DNA of 64,000 nucleotides from Saccharopolyspora rhizosphaerae (GTDB lineage Bacteria > Actinomycetota > Actinomycetes > Mycobacteriales > Pseudonocardiaceae), in contig NZ_RSAA01000007.1 of the NCBI RefSeq assembly GCF_003931915.1, positions 372,001-436,000 of the forward strand, read 5' to 3'. The notes under the pieces were generated by a model, which worked only from the letters and a program-made list of their open reading frames with translations, did no database searches and was not told the origin of the DNA. This document shows, in pieces, positions 5,777-13,815 of the stretch; position 1 is the first letter of the stretch, and every line of letters begins with the position of its first letter. A program made the translations under genes and the position numbers.

Positions 5777-7084
5777 TCAGGTCAGCACCTCCGCGGTGGG
5801 GGTTCGGGCGGCTCGGTGGCCGAAGAGGCCGCCTGCCGCGGTGATGAGCGCGAGGACGAGCAGCAGGGCCGCCGTCGACCAGGACTCCTGGCCGCTGGCG
5901 ATGAGCAGCGCGCTGGCGATCAGCGGGACGAAACCGCTGATCATGCCGCTGAGGTTGGACGAGATGGCCACGCCGCTGTAGCGCAGGTGCACCGGGAACA
6001 GGCTCGCCAGCAGGGAACCCGAGACCGCGTACGGGATCGACAGGCAGTTGATGCCGAGGGTCACCGCGATGATCACCAGCACCGGGTTGCGCGTGTCGAT
6101 CATCCAGAACACCGGGAACGCCATCGCCGCCGAGAGGACACCACCCCACAGGCAGACCTTGCCGGGGCTGAACCGGTCGGCGAGCCGGCCGCCGAAGATC
6201 AACGTGAGCACTTCGACCGCCGCCGCGACCAGTGTCGCGGCCAGCATCAACGACTTCGGCAGACCCAGCTGCCCGGAGCCGTAGCTGATCACGAAGGTGG
6301 TCAGCAGGTAGAACCCGCCGATGCCGATCAGCGACGCCGCGACGCCGATCAGCACCTGCCGCCACGCGGTGCGGAACAGCTCCACCGCGGGGACCGAAGC
6401 GCGGTCGTGCTCGGCCAGCACCTGCTCGAACACCGGGGACTCACCGACCCTGCGCCGCAGCCACAGCGCCACGCCCAGCAGCGGGAACGCCGCCAGGAAC
6501 GGCAGCCGCCAGCCCCACGAGTCGAACGACTCGTCGGGCAGCATCGCCACCAGGTAGAACCCGCCTGACGACAGCAGGGTGCCGACCGGGGAACCGATCT
6601 GCGGCAGCGCCGCGAAACGCCCGCGTTGCTCCGGAGGCGCGTGCTCCACGGCGAGGGTGACCGCCCCGCCCCACTCACCGCCGACCGCGACGCCCTGCAG
6701 CACGCGCAGCGCGGTCAGCAGCAGCGGTGCGGCCAGGCCGATCGTCACGAAGTCCGGCAGCAGACCGATGACGCCCGTGACGACGCTGATCAGGGTGACC
6801 GTGATGAGCAGGCAGCGCCTGCGCCCGATGCGGTCGCCGAGGTGGCCGAAGACCACCCCGCCGAGCGGCCTGGCCACGAAACCGACCGCGAACGAGGCGA
6901 AAGCGGCCAGCGTGGCCACCGCCGGGTCCTCGGTCGCGAAGTACAGCCGGTCGAACACGATCGACGCGGCGGTGCCGTAGAGGAAGTAGTCGTACCACTC
7001 CAGCGCGGTACCGACGAACGCGGCGAACGCGACCTTGCGCGCCTCTGCGGGTTCGATGCGAGCGGTGCTCGCTGTCTCGGTCAC
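5777..7084 (-). CDS. MFS permease of the metabolite:H+ symporter (MHS) family
   Basis: A 435-aa, 12-segment inner-membrane transporter. Near the N-terminus GTALEWYDYFLYG is the hallmark of the MHS family (shikimate, alpha-ketoglutarate, citrate, proline/betaine type carriers), followed by RPLGGVVFGHLGDRIGRR in loop 2-3. The substrate cannot be told from sequence. The start is the GTG at 7084 with GGGAGG about 6 nt upstream; the longer frame from 7186 overlaps the previous gene. It is the last gene of the urease-like operon, 22 bp after the amidohydrolase, so it probably imports the compound the operon degrades. Confidence 0.9.
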   Translation of the reverse strand: MTETASTARIEPAEARKVAFAAFVGTALEWYDYFLYGTAASIVFDRLYFATEDPAVATLAAFASFAVGFVARPLGGVVFGHLGDRIGRRRCLLITVTLISVVTGVIGLLPDFVTIGLAAPLLLTALRVLQGVAVGGEWGGAVTLAVEHAPPEQRGRFAALPQIGSPVGTLLSSGGFYLVAMLPDESFDSWGWRLPFLAAFPLLGVALWLRRRVGESPVFEQVLAEHDRASVPAVELFRTAWRQVLIGVAASLIGIGGFYLLTTFVISYGSGQLGLPKSLMLAATLVAAAVEVLTLIFGGRLADRFSPGKVCLWGGVLSAAMAFPVFWMIDTRNPVLVIIAVTLGINCLSIPYAVSGSLLASLFPVHLRYSGVAISSNLSGMISGFVPLIASALLIASGQESWSTAALLLVLALITAAGGLFGHRAARTPTAEVLT

Positions 7085-7106
7085 GGAGCCTCCCTGGTGT
7101 GCCGGA

Positions 7107-8735
7107 TCAGGTGGGAACCCCGGCGAACTCCTCCGCGCCGTGCACGGCGCGGCCGGCGACGAACGTGGCGCGCACGTCGATGTCACCGATCGCCGAGGTG
7201 GGGACGGTGGTCGGGTCGGCGTCGAGCAGCACGAGGTCGGCGACCATGCCTGCGGCGATGCGGCCGCGGTGGTCCTCCTGGCCCGCTGCCCACGCCGCGT
7301 GGGTGGTGTAGGCGCGCAAGGCTTCGGTGGCGTCGACCCGCTCGTCGGGGCTGAGCACCCGACCGGCCTTGGTGGTGCGGTCCACCATCGCGCGCATCCC
7401 CAGCAGCGGCGCGCCGTTGGACACGCACGGCCGGTCGGAACTGCCGGGCACCACCAGTCCGGCGTCGAGGAACGACTTGTGCCGGTACAGCCAGGGTTCC
7501 CGTTCCTCGCCGACCGCCTCGATCATGGTGTCGCCGATCTCGTGCAGGAACCGCGACTGCGGCACCGGGATGACGCCCAACGCGGCCATCCTGTCGAGCT
7601 GGTCGGGCCGCACCATGGCCGAGTGCTCGATGCGGTGGCGCGCGTGCGGTCGTGGCAGCTCCCGCTGCGCGGCCTCGAAGGCCTCCAGCGTCAGGTCGAT
7701 GGCGCGGTCGCCGATGGCGTGCGCGGCGATCCGCCACCCACCGCGGTGCGCGGTGAGGATCCGCTCGCGCAGCACGTCGGGGTCGTCGCCGAGCACGCCG
7801 CGCCCGCCGTGGCCGTGGAAGGGCTCAGTGACCGCGGCGGTGCGGCTGGACAGCGCGCCGTCGGTGAAGATCTTCATCGGCCCGATGCGCAGGAACTCGT
7901 CCCCGAAACCGCTGCGCAGTCCCAGGTCGAGGCCGAAGGAGTCCGGCCCGACCTGGTGCAGCACCTCGGTGGCGGGCATCAGCTCGACGCGCAGCGGCAG
8001 GTCGCCGCGCTGCCGGGCGAGCTGGTAGGCGGCGACCTCGGCCGGGCTGTGCCCGATCCAGCCCCCGCCGACGCCCGCTTCGGTGACGTGCGTGAGGCCT
8101 TCGGCCGCGTAGCGCTTCGCCGCGCGGGAGATGGCGGCGGCCAACTCCTCCACGGGGTAGGGCTTGACCAGCGCGTCGACCAGCTGCTGCGCCTGCTCGG
8201 CGAGCAGACCGGTCGGGGCACCGGCGTCGTCTCGCTCGACGACGCCGCCTTCGGGGACGCGGGCGGACCCGTCGAGAACGCCTGCCTTGTCGAGGATCGC
8301 GCTGCTGGCCACGCACATGTGCGCCGAGCGGTGCTTGAGCCACACCGGCCTGCCTCCGCCCGCCCGCTCGAGCTCCGCGAGTTCCGGGTGGCCGCCGATG
8401 ACGAAGTCGTCGTAACCGGAGCCGATCACCCAGCCGTCCGAGGGCAGTTTCGCCGCTTCTGCCGCGACCAGGTCGTAGAGCTCCTGGGAGCTCTGGCAGC
8501 GGGACAGGTCGAGCTCGGCCAGCGACAGCCCGTACCAGACCATGTGGTTGTGGGAGTCGGCGAAACCGGGCGTCACGACCGCGCCGCCACCGTCGACCAC
8601 CCGGCGCGCGGGCAGGTCGGCGATCTCCTCGTCCACCCCGACGACGCAGCCGCCGAGCACGCCGATCGCGTGCGCGGTGGGGTGGTCGGGGTTCATGGTC
8701 AGCGCGCGGACGTCGCGCAGCAGCAGGTCCAGCAC
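7107..8735 (-). CDS. Metal-dependent amidohydrolase, YtcJ-like family
   Basis: A 542-aa member of the amidohydrolase superfamily, YtcJ/exoenzyme-regulator-like branch. Metal-ligand motifs are in place: ADSHNHM (HxH, about residue 60), the IFTDGALSSRTA segment, HAIGDRAID, HRIEHSAMV, and SSDRP with the conserved Asp. It should hydrolyse an amide or related bond in a small molecule; the substrate is unknown. Starts at GTG 8735 behind a GGAAGG; it is 13 bp downstream of the urease-like alpha subunit and 22 bp upstream of the permease, so translation is likely coordinated. Its pairing with a urease-like enzyme suggests a two-step release of nitrogen from an imported compound. Confidence 0.88.
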   Translation of the reverse strand: MLDLLLRDVRALTMNPDHPTAHAIGVLGGCVVGVDEEIADLPARRVVDGGGAVVTPGFADSHNHMVWYGLSLAELDLSRCQSSQELYDLVAAEAAKLPSDGWVIGSGYDDFVIGGHPELAELERAGGGRPVWLKHRSAHMCVASSAILDKAGVLDGSARVPEGGVVERDDAGAPTGLLAEQAQQLVDALVKPYPVEELAAAISRAAKRYAAEGLTHVTEAGVGGGWIGHSPAEVAAYQLARQRGDLPLRVELMPATEVLHQVGPDSFGLDLGLRSGFGDEFLRIGPMKIFTDGALSSRTAAVTEPFHGHGGRGVLGDDPDVLRERILTAHRGGWRIAAHAIGDRAIDLTLEAFEAAQRELPRPHARHRIEHSAMVRPDQLDRMAALGVIPVPQSRFLHEIGDTMIEAVGEEREPWLYRHKSFLDAGLVVPGSSDRPCVSNGAPLLGMRAMVDRTTKAGRVLSPDERVDATEALRAYTTHAAWAAGQEDHRGRIAAGMVADLVLLDADPTTVPTSAIGDIDVRATFVAGRAVHGAEEFAGVPT

Positions 8736-8748
8736 TTCGTTCCCTTCC

Positions 8749-10422
8749 TCAGGCCAGGTGGTGCATCCGGGTGAGCGGCAGCGTGGCAGCTCGGTGCACG
8801 TCGACCTCCACCCCGTCGACCGACACCGGCCCCGGTTCGCGCGGCACCTCCACGCGCGGGGTCGCGGTGTTGCGGACCATGTCGGCCCTGGTCAGACGCC
8901 TGCTTTCGCGGACGGAGGCGTAGTGCGGGCCGCTGGGCAGGCGCGCTCGGTCGGCGGCATCGGCGACGAACACAGTGGACAGCCTGCGGGGAGCGGCCCC
9001 GAGTCCGCCGAAGAAAGGACGCATGACCCTCGGTTGGGTGAGCCGGGTGGAGCCGGACCCGGACCCGCTGGCGCCCCAGGCGACGAACCCGGACTTGATC
9101 ACGAGGTCGGGCTGGGCGCCGAACCAAGCGGGTTGCCACAGCGCGATGTCGGCGAGCCGGCCCGGCAGCAGCGAACCGACCTCGTGGGCCATGCCGTGCG
9201 CGATCGCGGGGTTGAGGGTGATCTTGGCGAGGTAGCGCAGCACCCGCTCGTTGTCGGCGTGCTCCGGACCGGTCTGCCCGGCGAGCGCGGCCTGGACGTG
9301 CGCGAGCTGCCAGGTGCGGCGGGCGGTTTCGGCGATGCGGCCCATGCCCATCGAGTCGGAGTTGACGATGCTGATCGCACCGGAGTCGTGCAGCGCGTTC
9401 TCCGCGGCGATGCCGTGTTCCCGCACCCGGCTGCCCGCGATGCCGCGGTCGCTGTCCACCATGGAATGTCCTCTGTGGACGGTCATGGTCATCGGGAACA
9501 GCTCCGGCACCGTGGCCGGCGTCAGCGGCAGCGTCGGGGTCGTCGAGGAGGTCAGCACGTGCGGGTGGCCCACGACCTCGAGCAGGTCGGGATGCCCGCC
9601 GCCGCCTTCGACGTGGTAGGCGTGCACCGTGCGGCCCCGGGTGGCGTCCACCGTGTCGGCGAGGAAACCGGATTCGTTGAGCGTGTCGGTGTGCAGGGCG
9701 ACCGGCAGGTCGGCCTGGTCCGCCACGCCCAGGCAGGTGTCCACGATGTGCGGGGTCGCGCCCCAGTCCTCGTGGATCTTGAAGCCGCCCGCGCCGGAGA
9801 GCACCGCGCGCTCGAGCAGGTCGTTCGACGAGGACGACCCGCGCGCCAGGAAGGCGACGTTGATCGGCACGTCCCGCCAGGCCGCGATCATCGAGTGCAG
9901 GTTGTAGGCCGGGTTCGCACCGACGTCCCACACCCCGCCCATGCCCATGCCGACCAGCGAGGTCACCCCGGCCGCGAGAGCTGCGGGCACGACCTCGGGG
10001 CTGGACAGGTGCACGTGCGAGTCGACCACGCCGGGCGTGGCGATGAGACCCTCCCCGGTGATCATCGCCGTGTGCGAGTCGACGACGAGCTCCACGTCGT
10101 CCATGGCCTGCGGGTTGCCCGCGCGCCCGACCCCGGCGATGCGACCGTCCTTGATCCCGATGTTGGTCTTGCGCACGCCCAGCACCGGGTCCAGCAGCAG
10201 GACACCGAGGATCACCATGTCCAGCGCGCTGTCCCGACCCGCCTTCGGCGCGACCAGCAACCCGTCGCGGGTGGTCTTGGCGCACCCGCCGAGCAGTTCC
10301 TCGCCCGGCTCGGAGTCGTCGTCCTCGACGCGCACCCACAGGTCGGTGTCGGCCAGCCGCACCAGGTCGCCCGTGGTCGGTCCGTACAGCGCCGCGTAGC
10401 GCTCGCGCGACAAGCTGGTCAT
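8749..10422 (-). CDS. Urease-like alpha subunit (divergent UreC)
   Basis: A 557-aa homologue of urease alpha (family usually about 570 aa). Residues aligning with the Ni ligands and the carbamylated lysine are all present: H135 and H137 (DSHVH), K214 and H216 (FKIHEDWG), H243, H269 and D355 (NSDSMGMGR); H315 corresponds to the flap histidine. However the flap cysteine (MVCHH in canonical ureases, Cys319 in Klebsiella) is valine V314 in MTVHRGH, and the usual GGGTGPATG loop is replaced by GMGMGGVWDVG. The ATG at 10422 overlaps the end of the upstream subunit gene (ATGA). None of ureD/E/F/G is present in the window. Either it is a slow urease matured by factors encoded elsewhere, or it acts on another urea-like substrate. 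I leave the symbol blank because of this divergence. Confidence 0.85.
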   Translation of the reverse strand: MTSLSRERYAALYGPTTGDLVRLADTDLWVRVEDDDSEPGEELLGGCAKTTRDGLLVAPKAGRDSALDMVILGVLLLDPVLGVRKTNIGIKDGRIAGVGRAGNPQAMDDVELVVDSHTAMITGEGLIATPGVVDSHVHLSSPEVVPAALAAGVTSLVGMGMGGVWDVGANPAYNLHSMIAAWRDVPINVAFLARGSSSSNDLLERAVLSGAGGFKIHEDWGATPHIVDTCLGVADQADLPVALHTDTLNESGFLADTVDATRGRTVHAYHVEGGGGHPDLLEVVGHPHVLTSSTTPTLPLTPATVPELFPMTMTVHRGHSMVDSDRGIAGSRVREHGIAAENALHDSGAISIVNSDSMGMGRIAETARRTWQLAHVQAALAGQTGPEHADNERVLRYLAKITLNPAIAHGMAHEVGSLLPGRLADIALWQPAWFGAQPDLVIKSGFVAWGASGSGSGSTRLTQPRVMRPFFGGLGAAPRRLSTVFVADAADRARLPSGPHYASVRESRRLTRADMVRNTATPRVEVPREPGPVSVDGVEVDVHRAATLPLTRMHHLA

Positions 10423-10994
10423 CGGCTGCCTCCCATCGCCACGACCTCGACTTCCCGGCACTCCCCGGCTTCCAAGCGCACCGCCATGCCCGCGGGGATC
10501 GCCAGCCGGAACCCGGTGAGCTCGACGTCGCTGCGCACCGCGGGGTTGAGCTGGTCCAGCGGGAAGTGCGAGGAGATCCACACCGGACGCGCGCCGGTGT
10601 TCTCCAGCTGAGCGGTCCGGTGCTCGCGGCCGACGGCCAGCTCGACCTCGCCGTCGGCGGCGCGCACCGCCCCGGGCGCGTCCGGCCCGGGCGGGCCGAA
10701 CGGGTGCGACACGTGGACCAGCGAACTGCCGTGCGGGAACAGGGCTTCGACCTGGATGGCGGGGACCGCGTCGGGCACCCCCGGCTGCACCTGGTCGGGG
10801 CGCAGCAGCTCGCCCGCGCGGCGCACGACCTCGTCGATGTCGACGCCGTCCCACGCCAGCTCGCAGATCTCGTCGCACACGTAGGCCACCGCGTCGGGCA
10901 CGCCCAGCAGCGCGCCGCGCGCGAGCCGGCGACGGGCCAGCTCCGCGGCGCTGAACAGGGTCAGCCGCTCCTGCTCACGAGGCGTCAAGTGCAT
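10419..10994 (-). CDS. Fused urease-like gamma-beta subunit (UreA-UreB)
   Basis: A 191-aa fusion. Residues 1-100 form a complete UreA gamma subunit (MHLTPREQERL at the start, GVPDAVPAIQVEALFPHG near 75-92); residues about 107-191 form UreB (ENTGARPVWISSHF, NPAVRSD, GFRLAIPAGMAVRLEAGE). Such fusions are known in some bacteria, including Helicobacter. It starts the operon 74 bp from the divergent PucR gene and overlaps the alpha subunit by 4 bp, so the two subunits are translationally coupled. Confidence 0.88.
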   Translation of the reverse strand: MHLTPREQERLTLFSAAELARRRLARGALLGVPDAVAYVCDEICELAWDGVDIDEVVRRAGELLRPDQVQPGVPDAVPAIQVEALFPHGSSLVHVSHPFGPPGPDAPGAVRAADGEVELAVGREHRTAQLENTGARPVWISSHFPLDQLNPAVRSDVELTGFRLAIPAGMAVRLEAGECREVEVVAMGGSR

Positions 10995-11068
10995 GAGAGC
11001 ACGGTCCTCTGGTCACCGGCCCAGCACAATGATGGATCCACGCCATCTGATCGTCCTAGATTGGGCAG

Positions 11069-12238
11069 ATGCACACTTCGCTTCACACGCCGGTCACAGC
11101 CGACGGCCCGTTGCGCAGGCTGGTGCGCTCCTGCCTGGACGACCTCGACGAGCTGGTCGCGGTGTTCCTCGCGGAGCTGCGCTCGATGGAGCCCTACGCC
11201 AGCGACGCGGTGCCGTGGCCAGAGCTGCGCGACCACGCCGAAGGCAGCATGGAGCTGCTGCTGCGGTTGGTCGGCGGCCTGACGGTGCCCGACCGGCTGG
11301 CCGACCTGTGCGAGCGGATCGGGCGCAGCCGGGCGCAGGCCGGCGTGCCGCTGGAGGTGCTGCTGCACGCGGTGCGCTTCGACTTCCGGGTGCTCTGGGA
11401 CGCCTTCACCCGCCGGGTGTCCGAGGAGGAGATGGCGTCGCTGGTGCGCAGCGCCTCGAGGGTGTGGGCCGCGGTCGACCACCACACCACCCGCATCCAC
11501 CTGGCCTACCTGGCCGAAGCGGCGGTGGTGGCCCGCGAGCAGGAGCACGAGCGGGCCCAGCTGGTGGCGCGGTTGCTGGCCACCGACGCGCGCGACCCGC
11601 AGGTGGTCGCCCAGGTCGCCACCGCGCTCGACGTCTCCGCCGAGGCCGACTTCGCGGTGGCCGCCGCGCCGCTGTCGGCGACCCGGCCGCTGCGCGACGC
11701 CGTCGACGAGCTCTCCGCCCGGGGCATCGCGGTGCACCTGCAGGACGTCGACCGGCGTCCGGTGCTCATCGCGCAGCTGCCCACCGGCGTCACCGCCGTG
11801 CCCGCGCGCTGGCTGCAGCACGTGCCGTGCGGGCTCGCGCCGGTCGCGCGCACCCTCGGGGGCGTACCGCGGGCGGTGCGGATCGCTGCCGAGCTCGCCG
11901 CGACCGGGGTGGCCGAGTACGGTCCGCGGGGGTTGACCGACGCCTGGTCCTCGGTGGTGGCGGGGCGGCTGGGCGAGCCGGGCGGCGCGCTGGCCGCGGA
12001 GGTGTTCGGCGCGATGCGCGGCATCGGCGCGGGCGAGCGCGCGCGGTTGCTGGAGACGGCGAGGGCCTACCTGCGCACCGGCTCGGCCGGCGCGGTGGCG
12101 GGTGAGCTGTACTGCCACCGCAACACCGTGCTCAACCGGCTGCGCCGGATCGCCGAGCTCACCGGCTGCGACCTCACCAGACCCGAGCAGGCGGCGCTGT
12201 TCGCCGTGGCCCGGGCGTGCGACCGCACCGGTCCGTGA
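11069..12238 (+). CDS. PucR/CdaR-type transcriptional regulator (urease-like operon)
   Basis: A 389-aa regulator: an N-terminal alpha-helical sensor region (RsbRD-like, about 15-170), a central degenerate GGDEF-like region and a C-terminal PucR helix-turn-helix (about 335-385; CHRNTVLNRLRRIAELTGCDL). PucR regulators control purine, amino acid and other nitrogen-compound catabolism. It is transcribed away from the UreAB fusion with only 74 bp between starts, which makes it the likely activator of that operon. No convincing Shine-Dalgarno precedes the ATG. Confidence 0.88.
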   Translation: MHTSLHTPVTADGPLRRLVRSCLDDLDELVAVFLAELRSMEPYASDAVPWPELRDHAEGSMELLLRLVGGLTVPDRLADLCERIGRSRAQAGVPLEVLLHAVRFDFRVLWDAFTRRVSEEEMASLVRSASRVWAAVDHHTTRIHLAYLAEAAVVAREQEHERAQLVARLLATDARDPQVVAQVATALDVSAEADFAVAAAPLSATRPLRDAVDELSARGIAVHLQDVDRRPVLIAQLPTGVTAVPARWLQHVPCGLAPVARTLGGVPRAVRIAAELAATGVAEYGPRGLTDAWSSVVAGRLGEPGGALAAEVFGAMRGIGAGERARLLETARAYLRTGSAGAVAGELYCHRNTVLNRLRRIAELTGCDLTRPEQAALFAVARACDRTGP

Positions 12239-12339
12239 TCTCGAACCACATGCGTCATGTCGAACACGGTGCGGCGCGTCGACCGTTCGACGTACTACGG
12301 TGGTCCCGGACTTCTTTCGACCGCGCAAAGGATGGGACG

Positions 12340-13815
12340 TTGACCGCGACGCAGATCCCGGACACCACCCGAGCAGAACTCGACGCCGCGCTGCAGCGGG
12401 CCGCCGAGGCCGCCGAACCCTTCGGCGAGCAGGCCCCGGCCGAGCGCGCCCGCCAGCTGCGGGCGGTCGCCGACGCGCTGGACGCGGCTGCCGGTGACCT
12501 GATCCCGCTGGCGATCAGCGAATCGCACCTCTCCGAGGGCCGCCTGACCGGCGAGCTCAAGCGGACCACCTTCCAGCTGCGCCTGTTCGCCGACACCATC
12601 GAGTCCGGCGAGCACCTGCACGTCACCTTCGACCAGGCGGACCCGGACTTCGCGCTGGGCCCGAAGCCGGACCTGCGGCGGATGCTGCTGCCGGTCGGCC
12701 CGGTGCTGGTGTTCGCCGCCAGCAACTTCCCCTTCGCCTTCTCCGTCGCCGGCGGTGACACGGCCGCCGCGCTGGCCGCCGGATGCCCGGTGGTGCTCAA
12801 GGGCCACCCCGGCCACCCCGAGCTGTCGGTCCGCACCGGTGAGGTCGTCGCCGAGGCGCTGCGCTCGGCGGGCGCTCCGGAGGGGACCTTCGAGGTCGTG
12901 CTCGGCTTCGAGATCGGCACCGAGGCGCTGCGCGACGAGCGGATCAAGGCCGCCGCGTTCACCGGATCGGTCCCGGCCGGGCGGGCGCTGTTCGACATCG
13001 CCAACTCGCGGCCGAAGCCGATCCCGTTCTTCGGCGAGCTGGGCAGCCTCAACCCCGTGTTCGTCACGCCCGGCGCGGTCGCCGCGCGCGGTGCCGACAT
13101 CGCCCAGGGCTACGTGACCTCCTACTCGGGCAACGCCGGTCAGCTGTGCACCAAGCCGGGGCTGCTGTTCCTGCCCGCCGACCACGGACTCGAGCAGACG
13201 CTGGCCGAGGAGTCGGCGGCGGTGTCGGCGCACCAGCTGCTCAACGACCGGCTGCACCAGGGCTACTGCGGCCGTCGCGCGGCGGTCACCGAGGTGCCGG
13301 GCGTGCGGGTGCTCGCCGACGGTGCGGCCGACGACTCCGCCAGCACCGACGGCGCGACGCCCACGCTGCTGACCACCGACGTGGACACGCTTCTCGCGCA
13401 CCAGGACTCGCTGCTGGAGGAGGTCTTCGGCCCGCTGTCCATCGTGGTCACCTACTCCTCGGAGGACGAGGCCCGCCGCGCCGCGGAGGCGTTCGAGGGC
13501 AACCTCACCGCGACCGTCCACTCCGAGGACTCCGACACCGACTTCGTCGCCACCCTGCTGCCCCGCCTGCGGGAACGCGCCGGTCGTGTGCTGTTCAACG
13601 GCTGGCCCACCGGCGTCGCCGTCTCCCCCGCCATGCAGCACGGCGGGCCGTACCCGGCCACCACGGACGCCCGCTTCACCTCGGTGGGCACGGCGGCCCT
13701 CGACCGCTTCCTCCGCCCGGTGACCTACCAGAACGTCCCGGCCGCCCTGCTGCCGCCGGCCCTCCGGGACGAGAACCCCTGGAACATCCCGCAGAAGACC
13801 CACACCCCGAACTGA
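12340..13815 (+). CDS. NADP+-dependent aldehyde dehydrogenase (ketoglutarate-semialdehyde type)
   Basis: A 491-aa aldehyde dehydrogenase of the NADP-linked subgroup often named alpha-ketoglutaric semialdehyde / 2,5-dioxovalerate dehydrogenase. Visible: VLVFAASNFPFAFSVAGGD, the cofactor-site FTGSVPAGRALF, general-base Glu in FFGELGSLNP, and nucleophile Cys in GNAGQLCTKPG (about residue 270). TTG at 12340 with AAAGGA about 9 nt upstream is the best start, because the longer frame from 12217 overlaps the pucR end without similarity. It lies about 100 bp behind the PucR gene and may be co-transcribed with it. A strong terminator follows. Confidence 0.88.
   Translation: MTATQIPDTTRAELDAALQRAAEAAEPFGEQAPAERARQLRAVADALDAAAGDLIPLAISESHLSEGRLTGELKRTTFQLRLFADTIESGEHLHVTFDQADPDFALGPKPDLRRMLLPVGPVLVFAASNFPFAFSVAGGDTAAALAAGCPVVLKGHPGHPELSVRTGEVVAEALRSAGAPEGTFEVVLGFEIGTEALRDERIKAAAFTGSVPAGRALFDIANSRPKPIPFFGELGSLNPVFVTPGAVAARGADIAQGYVTSYSGNAGQLCTKPGLLFLPADHGLEQTLAEESAAVSAHQLLNDRLHQGYCGRRAAVTEVPGVRVLADGAADDSASTDGATPTLLTTDVDTLLAHQDSLLEEVFGPLSIVVTYSSEDEARRAAEAFEGNLTATVHSEDSDTDFVATLLPRLRERAGRVLFNGWPTGVAVSPAMQHGGPYPATTDARFTSVGTAALDRFLRPVTYQNVPAALLPPALRDENPWNIPQKTHTPN

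Follow-up and report, generated by a model that had tools for sequence, protein, structure and literature searches.

A urease-fold operon of actinobacteria that also occurs in genomes without UreD, UreF, and UreG, and its possible role in the breakdown of guanidino-derived ureas

In a 64,000-nucleotide stretch of Saccharopolyspora rhizosphaerae DNA (NCBI RefSeq assembly GCF_003931915.1, contig NZ_RSAA01000007.1, positions 372,001 to 436,000; hereafter the window), we analyzed a urease-like operon that encodes a fusion of the two small urease subunits (UreAB), a urease-alpha-like subunit (UreC2), a YtcJ-like amidohydrolase (AH3), and a permease, with a divergent gene for a PucR-type regulator (Table 1). 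The UreAB and UreC2 frames overlap by 4 bases, and gaps of 13 bases (between UreC2 and AH3) and 22 bases (between AH3 and the permease) follow. The genes, the overlap, and the gaps are exactly those given by the initial annotation of this DNA, which had proposed a specialized system rather than a general urease. In the textbook case of urease, a nickel enzyme, assembly requires UreD, UreF, and UreG (UreDFG).

Table 1. Genes of the urease-like operon and its divergent regulator, with coordinates in the window.
Feature	Position	Strand	Profile matches and remarks
PucR-type (HTH_30) transcriptional regulator	11069-12238	+	HTH_30 64 bits; divergent from operon
UreAB, UreA-UreB fusion, 191 aa	10419-10994	-	Urease_gamma 104.7 bits, Urease_beta 69.6 bits
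UreC2, urease-alpha-like subunit	8749-10422	-	Urease_alpha 130 bits; also Amidohydro_1 (Pfam)
AH3, YtcJ-like metal-dependent amidohydrolase (Amidohydro_3)	7107-8735	-	PF07969 338 bits, above cut-off
Metabolite:H+ symporter (MHS)-type MFS permease	5777-7084	-	MFS_1 (Pfam); TIGR00883 371 bits, cut-off 443

The match of UreC2 to urease spans nearly its full length; when its predicted model (mean predicted local distance difference test score, pLDDT, 80.7) is laid over Klebsiella urease, the template modeling (TM) score is 0.93 and the identity 41%. All seven residues of the metal site are intact (H136, H138, K215, H217, H244, H270, and D356, counted from the ATG at 10422). The flap cysteine, Cys319 of canonical urease, is V315 here, and the urea-pocket loop GGGTGPA is absent, its place being taken by GMGMGGVWDVGANP. 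The initial annotation had read the retained ligands and lysine, the cysteine-to-valine change, and the replaced loop correctly, with residue numbers that were one too low (its V314 is V315). UreC2 reaches the broader subfamily model NF009686 (679 against a cut-off of 354) and misses both urease-alpha equivalog cut-offs (TIGR01792, 564 versus 680; NF009685, 562 versus 907). Its identity to the canonical UreC of its own genome is 44%.

Relatives were searched for with six short UreC2 peptides, including one over the pocket loop, one over the flap, and one over the K215 motif, and the best 80 of 450 were used as loci. Among them, 47 actinobacterial loci with 54-95% identity to UreC2 (L004-L050) make up what we call type 1, a sample that is biased toward the query motifs and whose neighboring genes were called by a GC-position heuristic, with some genes missed or merged. 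In a tree of 60 rows, built quickly under LG+G4, type 1 (34 rows) and a second group of urease-like sequences, type 2 (11 rows), each fell on one side of a branch with a support of 100, so that the clade expected for the Val-type UreC proteins was borne out.

All sequences compared (47 type-1, 36 canonical, and 11 type-2) have the same residues at H136, H138, K215, H217, D219, H244, H270, H316, R332, and D356; the His4-Lys-Asp dinuclear site (with a predicted carbamylation of the lysine), the catalytic histidine, and the arginine are kept in the window and throughout type 1. Invariance of the metal ligands, K215, D219, H316, and R332 argues that UreC2 is probably catalytic. At the flap position, valine is found in 47/47 type-1 sequences and in nine type-2 sequences (with one alanine and one serine among the other two), while cysteine is found in 35 of the 36 canonical sequences. 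The single exception is an archaeal UreC from Metallosphaera (L078:9998-11662), which has the flap valine, although its urea-pocket loop is canonical and UreG is matched downstream of it; loss of the cysteine by itself is no marker of the non-urease type. Cys319 is not essential for urease activity. Across type 1 the loop follows the pattern GMGxGG[VM]W[DE][VI]GxNP, and the pocket is rebuilt identically in all 47 sequences (V315, W165, G359, and N170), a uniformity that is partly selected because the loci were found with peptides that include the loop and flap motifs. Residue 317, which follows the catalytic histidine, is Arg or Lys in 42/47 type-1 sequences and Asp or Gly in 11/11 type-2 sequences.

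The last residues of the small-subunit fusion of the window are GGSR; other fusions have a longer C-terminal tail that is missing here. UreAB has at most 220 residues in 44 of the 47 type-1 loci and 225-279 residues in the 11 type-2 loci; most type-1 proteins end near the GGxR motif, while the type-2 and Helicobacter fusions continue past it. By sequence, the closest solved relative is 3qga, a UreA-UreB fusion of 225 residues, which is matched up to residue 193.

In AH3, the metal-site residues H62, H64, K288, H339, H371, and D434 (HxH, K, H, H, D) are invariant in an alignment of 21 sequences. The model has a mean pLDDT of 87.9, and its nearest solved folds, 3igh and 3icj, are both uncharacterized, as were all the closest matches in the sequence-profile and structure searches; fold neighbors beyond these two include triazine hydrolases, imidazolonepropionase, and isocytosine deaminase. 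For the permease, MHS is the best available name, yet its TIGR00883 score lies below the cut-off.

Within 6 kb of UreC2, the 47 type-1 loci contain UreAB (47), AH3 of at least 45% identity (37), an MHS permease (41), and PucR (41), while ureF, ureG, and ureD were each found in 0/47. Recurrence over 47 loci shows that neither the operon nor the residue changes are due to chance. The initial annotation had asked whether the linkage to the amidohydrolase and the permease always holds; it is frequent, and neither partner is universal. In one of the ten type-1 loci that lack AH3 within 6 kb (L015), the contig stops at UreC2. Three of the other nine have a deiminase and three have a thiamine diphosphate (ThDP) enzyme. 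Most of these genomes carry an AH3 relative elsewhere, at 47-49% identity for L034 and L037 and 39-41% for L048 and L050, with more distant relatives in the genomes of L033 (38%), L030 (37%), and the Nonomuraea loci L043, L045, and L046 (36-37%). An AH3-like gene of about 30% identity stands next to UreC in L048, L050, and L054, and in each case it is not the best AH3 of its own genome.

The initial annotation had called for a search of the whole genome for a canonical urease, and ureA-B-C-F-G-D is indeed present on another contig (C5). When the UreF, UreG, and UreD proteins of that cluster were used in tblastn, no match was found in the whole window, in agreement with the claim that these genes are missing nearby; the part of that claim concerning ureE was left aside, as UreE was not searched by model. 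We surveyed 48 genomes for UreDFG (those of the 47 type-1 loci and of the type-2 locus L054). UreF, UreD, and UreG over its cut-off were present in 34/48, the same genomes for all three, and UreD, UreF, and a true UreG were all missing in the other 14. Eight of these 14 are not labeled as metagenome-assembled genomes (MAGs): L010, L016 (a complete chromosome), L017, L019, L020, L033, L036, and L041. The remaining six (L030, L037, L047, L048, L050, and L054) are MAG-labeled, with no completeness figures. GTPase matches of 23-35 bits, far under the UreG cut-off of 204, were seen in 6/14. In 12/14, the sole Urease_alpha match is the locus itself; the second match in the other two is a type-2 copy (L084, in the genome of L016) and a 24.5-bit match (in the genome of L030). 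The 34 UreDFG-bearing genomes also hold a Urease_alpha copy of 160-180 bits, although score alone is no clean separator of types, some copies that adjoin UreF scoring 116-147 bits.

UreABC2 is thus found in several lineages whose genomes lack the urease chaperones. As a general explanation, maturation in trans fails and was rejected, since 14 genomes, one of them a complete chromosome, lack UreDFG. The view that this is not a general urease operon is upheld by the AH3 and MHS linkage, the absence of ureF, ureG, and ureD near all 47 loci, and these 14 genomes. In the 47 loci we saw neither of the sequence-based findings that would have spoken against it, namely a Val-type UreC beside ureDEFG or an unconserved linkage to AH3 and the permease.

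A related pattern is found in type 2. The second UreC copies fetched from the surveyed genomes (L084-L091, L093, and L094) belong to this group, and no UreF, UreG, or UreD was found in the fetched loci. In 9/10 of them no more than 65 bases separate UreC from the start of an AguA-like gene downstream, and in L089 this gene lies 5.7 kb off; the 11th member, L054, has no AguA-like gene in its locus and carries a spermidine/putrescine-type ABC transporter and the AH3-like gene instead. AguA-like representatives from L087, L089, L090, and L092 scored 214-347 bits on TIGR03380, below its cut-off of 382. The AguA family (PF04371) is present in 20 genomes and lies within 2.5 kb of a Urease_alpha match in 14/20 (within 4 kb in G018); the second UreC copies of G012, G023, G029, G035, and G046 are tied to type 2 by match positions only and are unaligned. 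Window UreC2 lies outside the type-2 clade, and no AguA-like match was found in the window or in loci L004-L050. The type-2 ure(AB)C of Streptomyces and relatives resembles type 1 in the UreAB fusion, the absence of accessory genes from the loci, W165 and N170, and the valine at the cysteine position (9/11). It differs in sequence (46-49% identity), in its loop (GQEFGPVWGVGVNS), in keeping the UreB tail, and in having an AguA-like neighbor rather than AH3 and MHS. As a separate observation, the Pseudonocardia acaciae genome contains a very divergent third UreAB/UreC-like pair (L092:8933-11212), whose pocket loop is largely deleted; genes for an amino-acid permease, an M20-type amidohydrolase, and an AguA-like protein lie near it.

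Type 2 probably includes the "second urease" of S. coelicolor, SCO5525-5526, in which case SCO5527 would be its AguA-like neighbor. One paper gives ureABC as SCO5525-5526 and places SCO5527 among the homologues of the arginine-decarboxylase pathway (PMC3293853). The gene numbers conflict in print, because another paper assigns SCO5526-SCO5524 to nrdABS (PMC4991794). Elsewhere, ure(AB)C of Streptomyces is counted as a functional urease cluster type (PMC5489568), and a Brucella urease paper also comments on S. coelicolor (PMC2492869).

Deiminases convert guanidino groups to ureido groups and release no urea. Such enzymes are also found beside type-1 UreC2. In the Nonomuraea loci (L043, L045, and L046), an arginine deiminase (ADI)/dimethylarginine dimethylaminohydrolase (DDAH)-like enzyme lies between MHS and UreAB and there is no AH3; two of these three ADI-like genes were scanned against NCBIfam, and the remaining one is a tblastn relative. 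In the Acidimicrobiia genomes of L048 and L050, four genes stand in a row: amidinotransferase-like, one further gene, AH3, and AguA-like. The L050 genome has this run on the UreC2 contig itself, and the other genome has it on a contig that seemingly adjoins the UreC2 contig. The further gene is a class III aminotransferase in L098 (its L099 counterpart is unscanned), and the name amidinotransferase-like rests on the opening residues, Pfam giving only a sub-threshold ADI match. A long cluster of guanidine/agmatine type in an Acidimicrobiaceae bin (L098:1383-14707) reads amidinotransferase-like, aminotransferase, AH3, AguA-like, AguB-like, ABC transporter, and a second AH3-like gene. In 15 type-1 loci the next gene group includes a ThDP enzyme, and five of these loci also have an aminobutyraldehyde dehydrogenase. 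Two of the 15 ThDP genes were scanned, both scoring over the NF006052 cut-off, as was one of the five dehydrogenases, over the NF010000 cut-off; the rest are tblastn relatives. This pair of enzymes would fit the breakdown of a 2-oxo-guanidino acid. To the earlier proposal, the gene context of the relatives adds guanidino compounds as the source suggested upstream; overall, the inference of a specialized system rather than a general urease is partly supported.

Since deiminases yield a ureido group and not urea, the simplest substrate for a urease-like enzyme encoded alongside them is the ureido product. We therefore put forward, tentatively and at somewhat less than an even chance, that UreAB-UreC2 has the urease fold but hydrolyzes N-substituted ureas (ureido or N-carbamoyl compounds) derived from guanidino compounds; in this proposal we infer the substrate class, the order of the steps, the self-assembly, and the metal. 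The permease would import a guanidino or ureido acid, and AH3 (a Cys-type deiminase in relatives) would turn the imported compound into, or expose it as, a ureido group, a step that for the window operon is suggested by analogy. Hydrolysis of that group by UreABC2 would then yield amine, NH3, and CO2, and PucR would sense the substrate. The dinuclear site with its urease ligands may need no UreDFG for its assembly, which may be spontaneous or use another metal; other carbamylated-lysine amidohydrolases form their metal sites in such ways. Residue 317 agrees with this proposal: Arg or Lys would suit an acid delivered by the MHS symporter, and Asp or Gly a cationic amine such as N-carbamoylputrescine. 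The wider proposal, that at least two actinobacterial clades (the window type and Streptomyces ure(AB)C) are non-urease, maturation-free hydrolases of guanidino-derived N-substituted ureas, we regard as possible and hold more loosely still.

Several findings weigh against this assignment. For the window, the guanidine link is indirect and rests on AH3, since its own genome has no PF04371 gene; that genome has one arginine-deiminase-family gene, far off on another contig. No deiminase lies within 6 kb in 44/47 type-1 loci or in the window (a DDAH-like gene of 31% identity is about 8 kb away in L036), and the replacement of AH3 in Nonomuraea counts as one event because it is confined to one lineage. 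Nor is AH3 simply a deiminase substitute: we had considered it as such, and the idea is weakened because both coexist in the Acidimicrobiia cluster and because L048, L050, and L054 have their AH3-like genes of about 30% identity. The AguA-like gene beside the type-2 UreC on the complete chromosome behind L016 (L084:11561-12561) matches in two reading frames and so may be broken or misread. The argument from residue 317 is weak, with Gly in three and His in two type-1 sequences. An AguB-like nitrilase (232 bits, cut-off 410) comes next in the L098 run and is available for the carbamoyl step. Absence of AguB was itself tried as an argument: the strict model gave no match over its cut-off in 11/11 genomes searched, but AguB relatives of 252-263 bits are present in 8/11, so it is not decisive. 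The ThDP gene was likewise considered as a 2-oxoarginine decarboxylase and is not a member by score, the L034 enzyme reaching 226 bits on the 5-guanidino-2-oxopentanoate decarboxylase model (cut-off 500), which is outside the best 25 models for the L047 enzyme. Finally, in-trans maturation is possible in 34/48 genomes and in that of the window, because UreDFG is present there.

This last point leads to the strongest of the other explanations, which we consider unlikely though it deserves serious weight: UreABC2 may be a slow or special-purpose urease that acts on urea released by AH3 from a guanidino compound or another source of urea, with nickel inserted in trans by the canonical UreDFG where these are present or else with iron or another metal, in the manner of the Helicobacter iron urease UreA2B2. 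Every catalytic residue is kept, the modeled fold is that of urease (TM 0.93), the nearest solved protein to UreAB is the iron-urease fusion of H. mustelae (3qga), and the genome of the window carries ureFGD. Structures of Klebsiella C319A, C319S, C319D, and C319Y variants exist, some Cys319 variants reportedly retain activity, and the Metallosphaera UreC combines valine with an otherwise canonical loop and a downstream UreG match. Such a urease is hard to reconcile with a urea-pocket loop rebuilt in 47/47, with the 14 of 48 genomes that lack UreD, UreF, and true UreG, and with two type-1 lineages that adjoin deiminases, enzymes that release no urea; the other 34 genomes already own a Urease_alpha copy of 160-180 bits and UreDFG. 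If urea were instead the product, UreABC2 would be a urease-fold guanidinohydrolase that, for example, splits 4-guanidinobutyrate into urea and 4-aminobutyrate (GABA) and passes the urea to the canonical urease. The L034 operon, which has the ThDP enzyme and aminobutyraldehyde dehydrogenase and no AH3, as in the route from 2-oxoarginine to guanidinobutyrate, agrees with this, and a positive R317 could hold the carboxylate. But urea would be wasted in the UreDFG-free genomes, where Urease_alpha matches are of accessory-free types apart from the one of 24.5 bits, the L034 genome has an AH3 (47%) elsewhere, and the deiminase neighbors would be superfluous, which makes this reading quite improbable.

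PucR regulators in other bacteria control purine and ureide use, which recalls a cyclic ureide or amide pathway, in which AH3 would open a ring or cleave an amide and UreABC2 would act on a hydantoin-, allantoin-, or allophanate-like product under a purine-type PucR. The fold neighbors of AH3 named above fit such chemistry, as do the amidase and isochorismatase-family hydrolase beside UreC2 in L048, both with homologues in L050. No allantoinase, hydantoinase, or uricase was recognized among the scanned neighbors, most neighbors being unscanned against the family library, and the deiminases would be left unexplained; we judge this pathway improbable, though less so than the guanidinohydrolase. 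A non-catalytic or decaying urease paralogue could account for the loss of the flap cysteine and the UreB tail, but with active-site residues invariant and synteny conserved over 47 loci it is very hard to sustain.

UreABC2 shares with canonical nickel urease (that of Klebsiella aerogenes and the copy in its own genome) the subunit domains, the fold, the seven metal-site residues, and the catalytic His and Arg, and it differs in the Cys-to-Val change, the replaced pocket loop, the short UreB, the lack of UreDFG nearby, and the other neighbors. To our knowledge, hydrolysis of N-substituted ureas has so far been assigned only to nitrilase-fold and other unrelated enzymes, and we know of no catabolic neighbors tied to the iron urease of H. 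mustelae. That enzyme, UreA2B2 (3qga/3qgk), is a second urease with another metal; it shares with UreAB the fused small subunits, is its nearest solved relative, and aligns with the UreC2 model at 40% identity. UreA2B2 hydrolyzes urea by means of an iron cofactor (PMC11541087). The AguA-AguB route for agmatine (deiminase plus N-carbamoylputrescine amidase) follows the same two-step logic of guanidino to ureido to amine, except that AguB is a carbon-nitrogen hydrolase of the nitrilase family, whereas UreC2 is of the amidohydrolase type. In the literature searched, which mostly excluded subscription papers, we recognized no paper that gives these genes a non-urea substrate or links them to AH3 or a deiminase.

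Because the clade keeps its complete metal site even where UreD, UreF, and UreG are missing, the purpose of the chaperones and the choice of metal can be studied in a natural setting, and the UreC2 operon connects urease-fold enzymes with guanidine catabolism in a way that can be tested. Genes annotated as "urease" in many actinomycetes, among them strains that have been scored for ureolysis, need not encode urea hydrolysis; if the proposal is true, Streptomyces ure(AB)C, annotated for years as a second urease, is not one.

Directly downstream of PucR, the window also encodes an aldehyde dehydrogenase (12271-13815) with weak matches to several semialdehyde dehydrogenase models. We exclude it from the operon because, among all loci compared, its close homologues (86-89%) are confined to five Saccharopolyspora loci (L004-L008).

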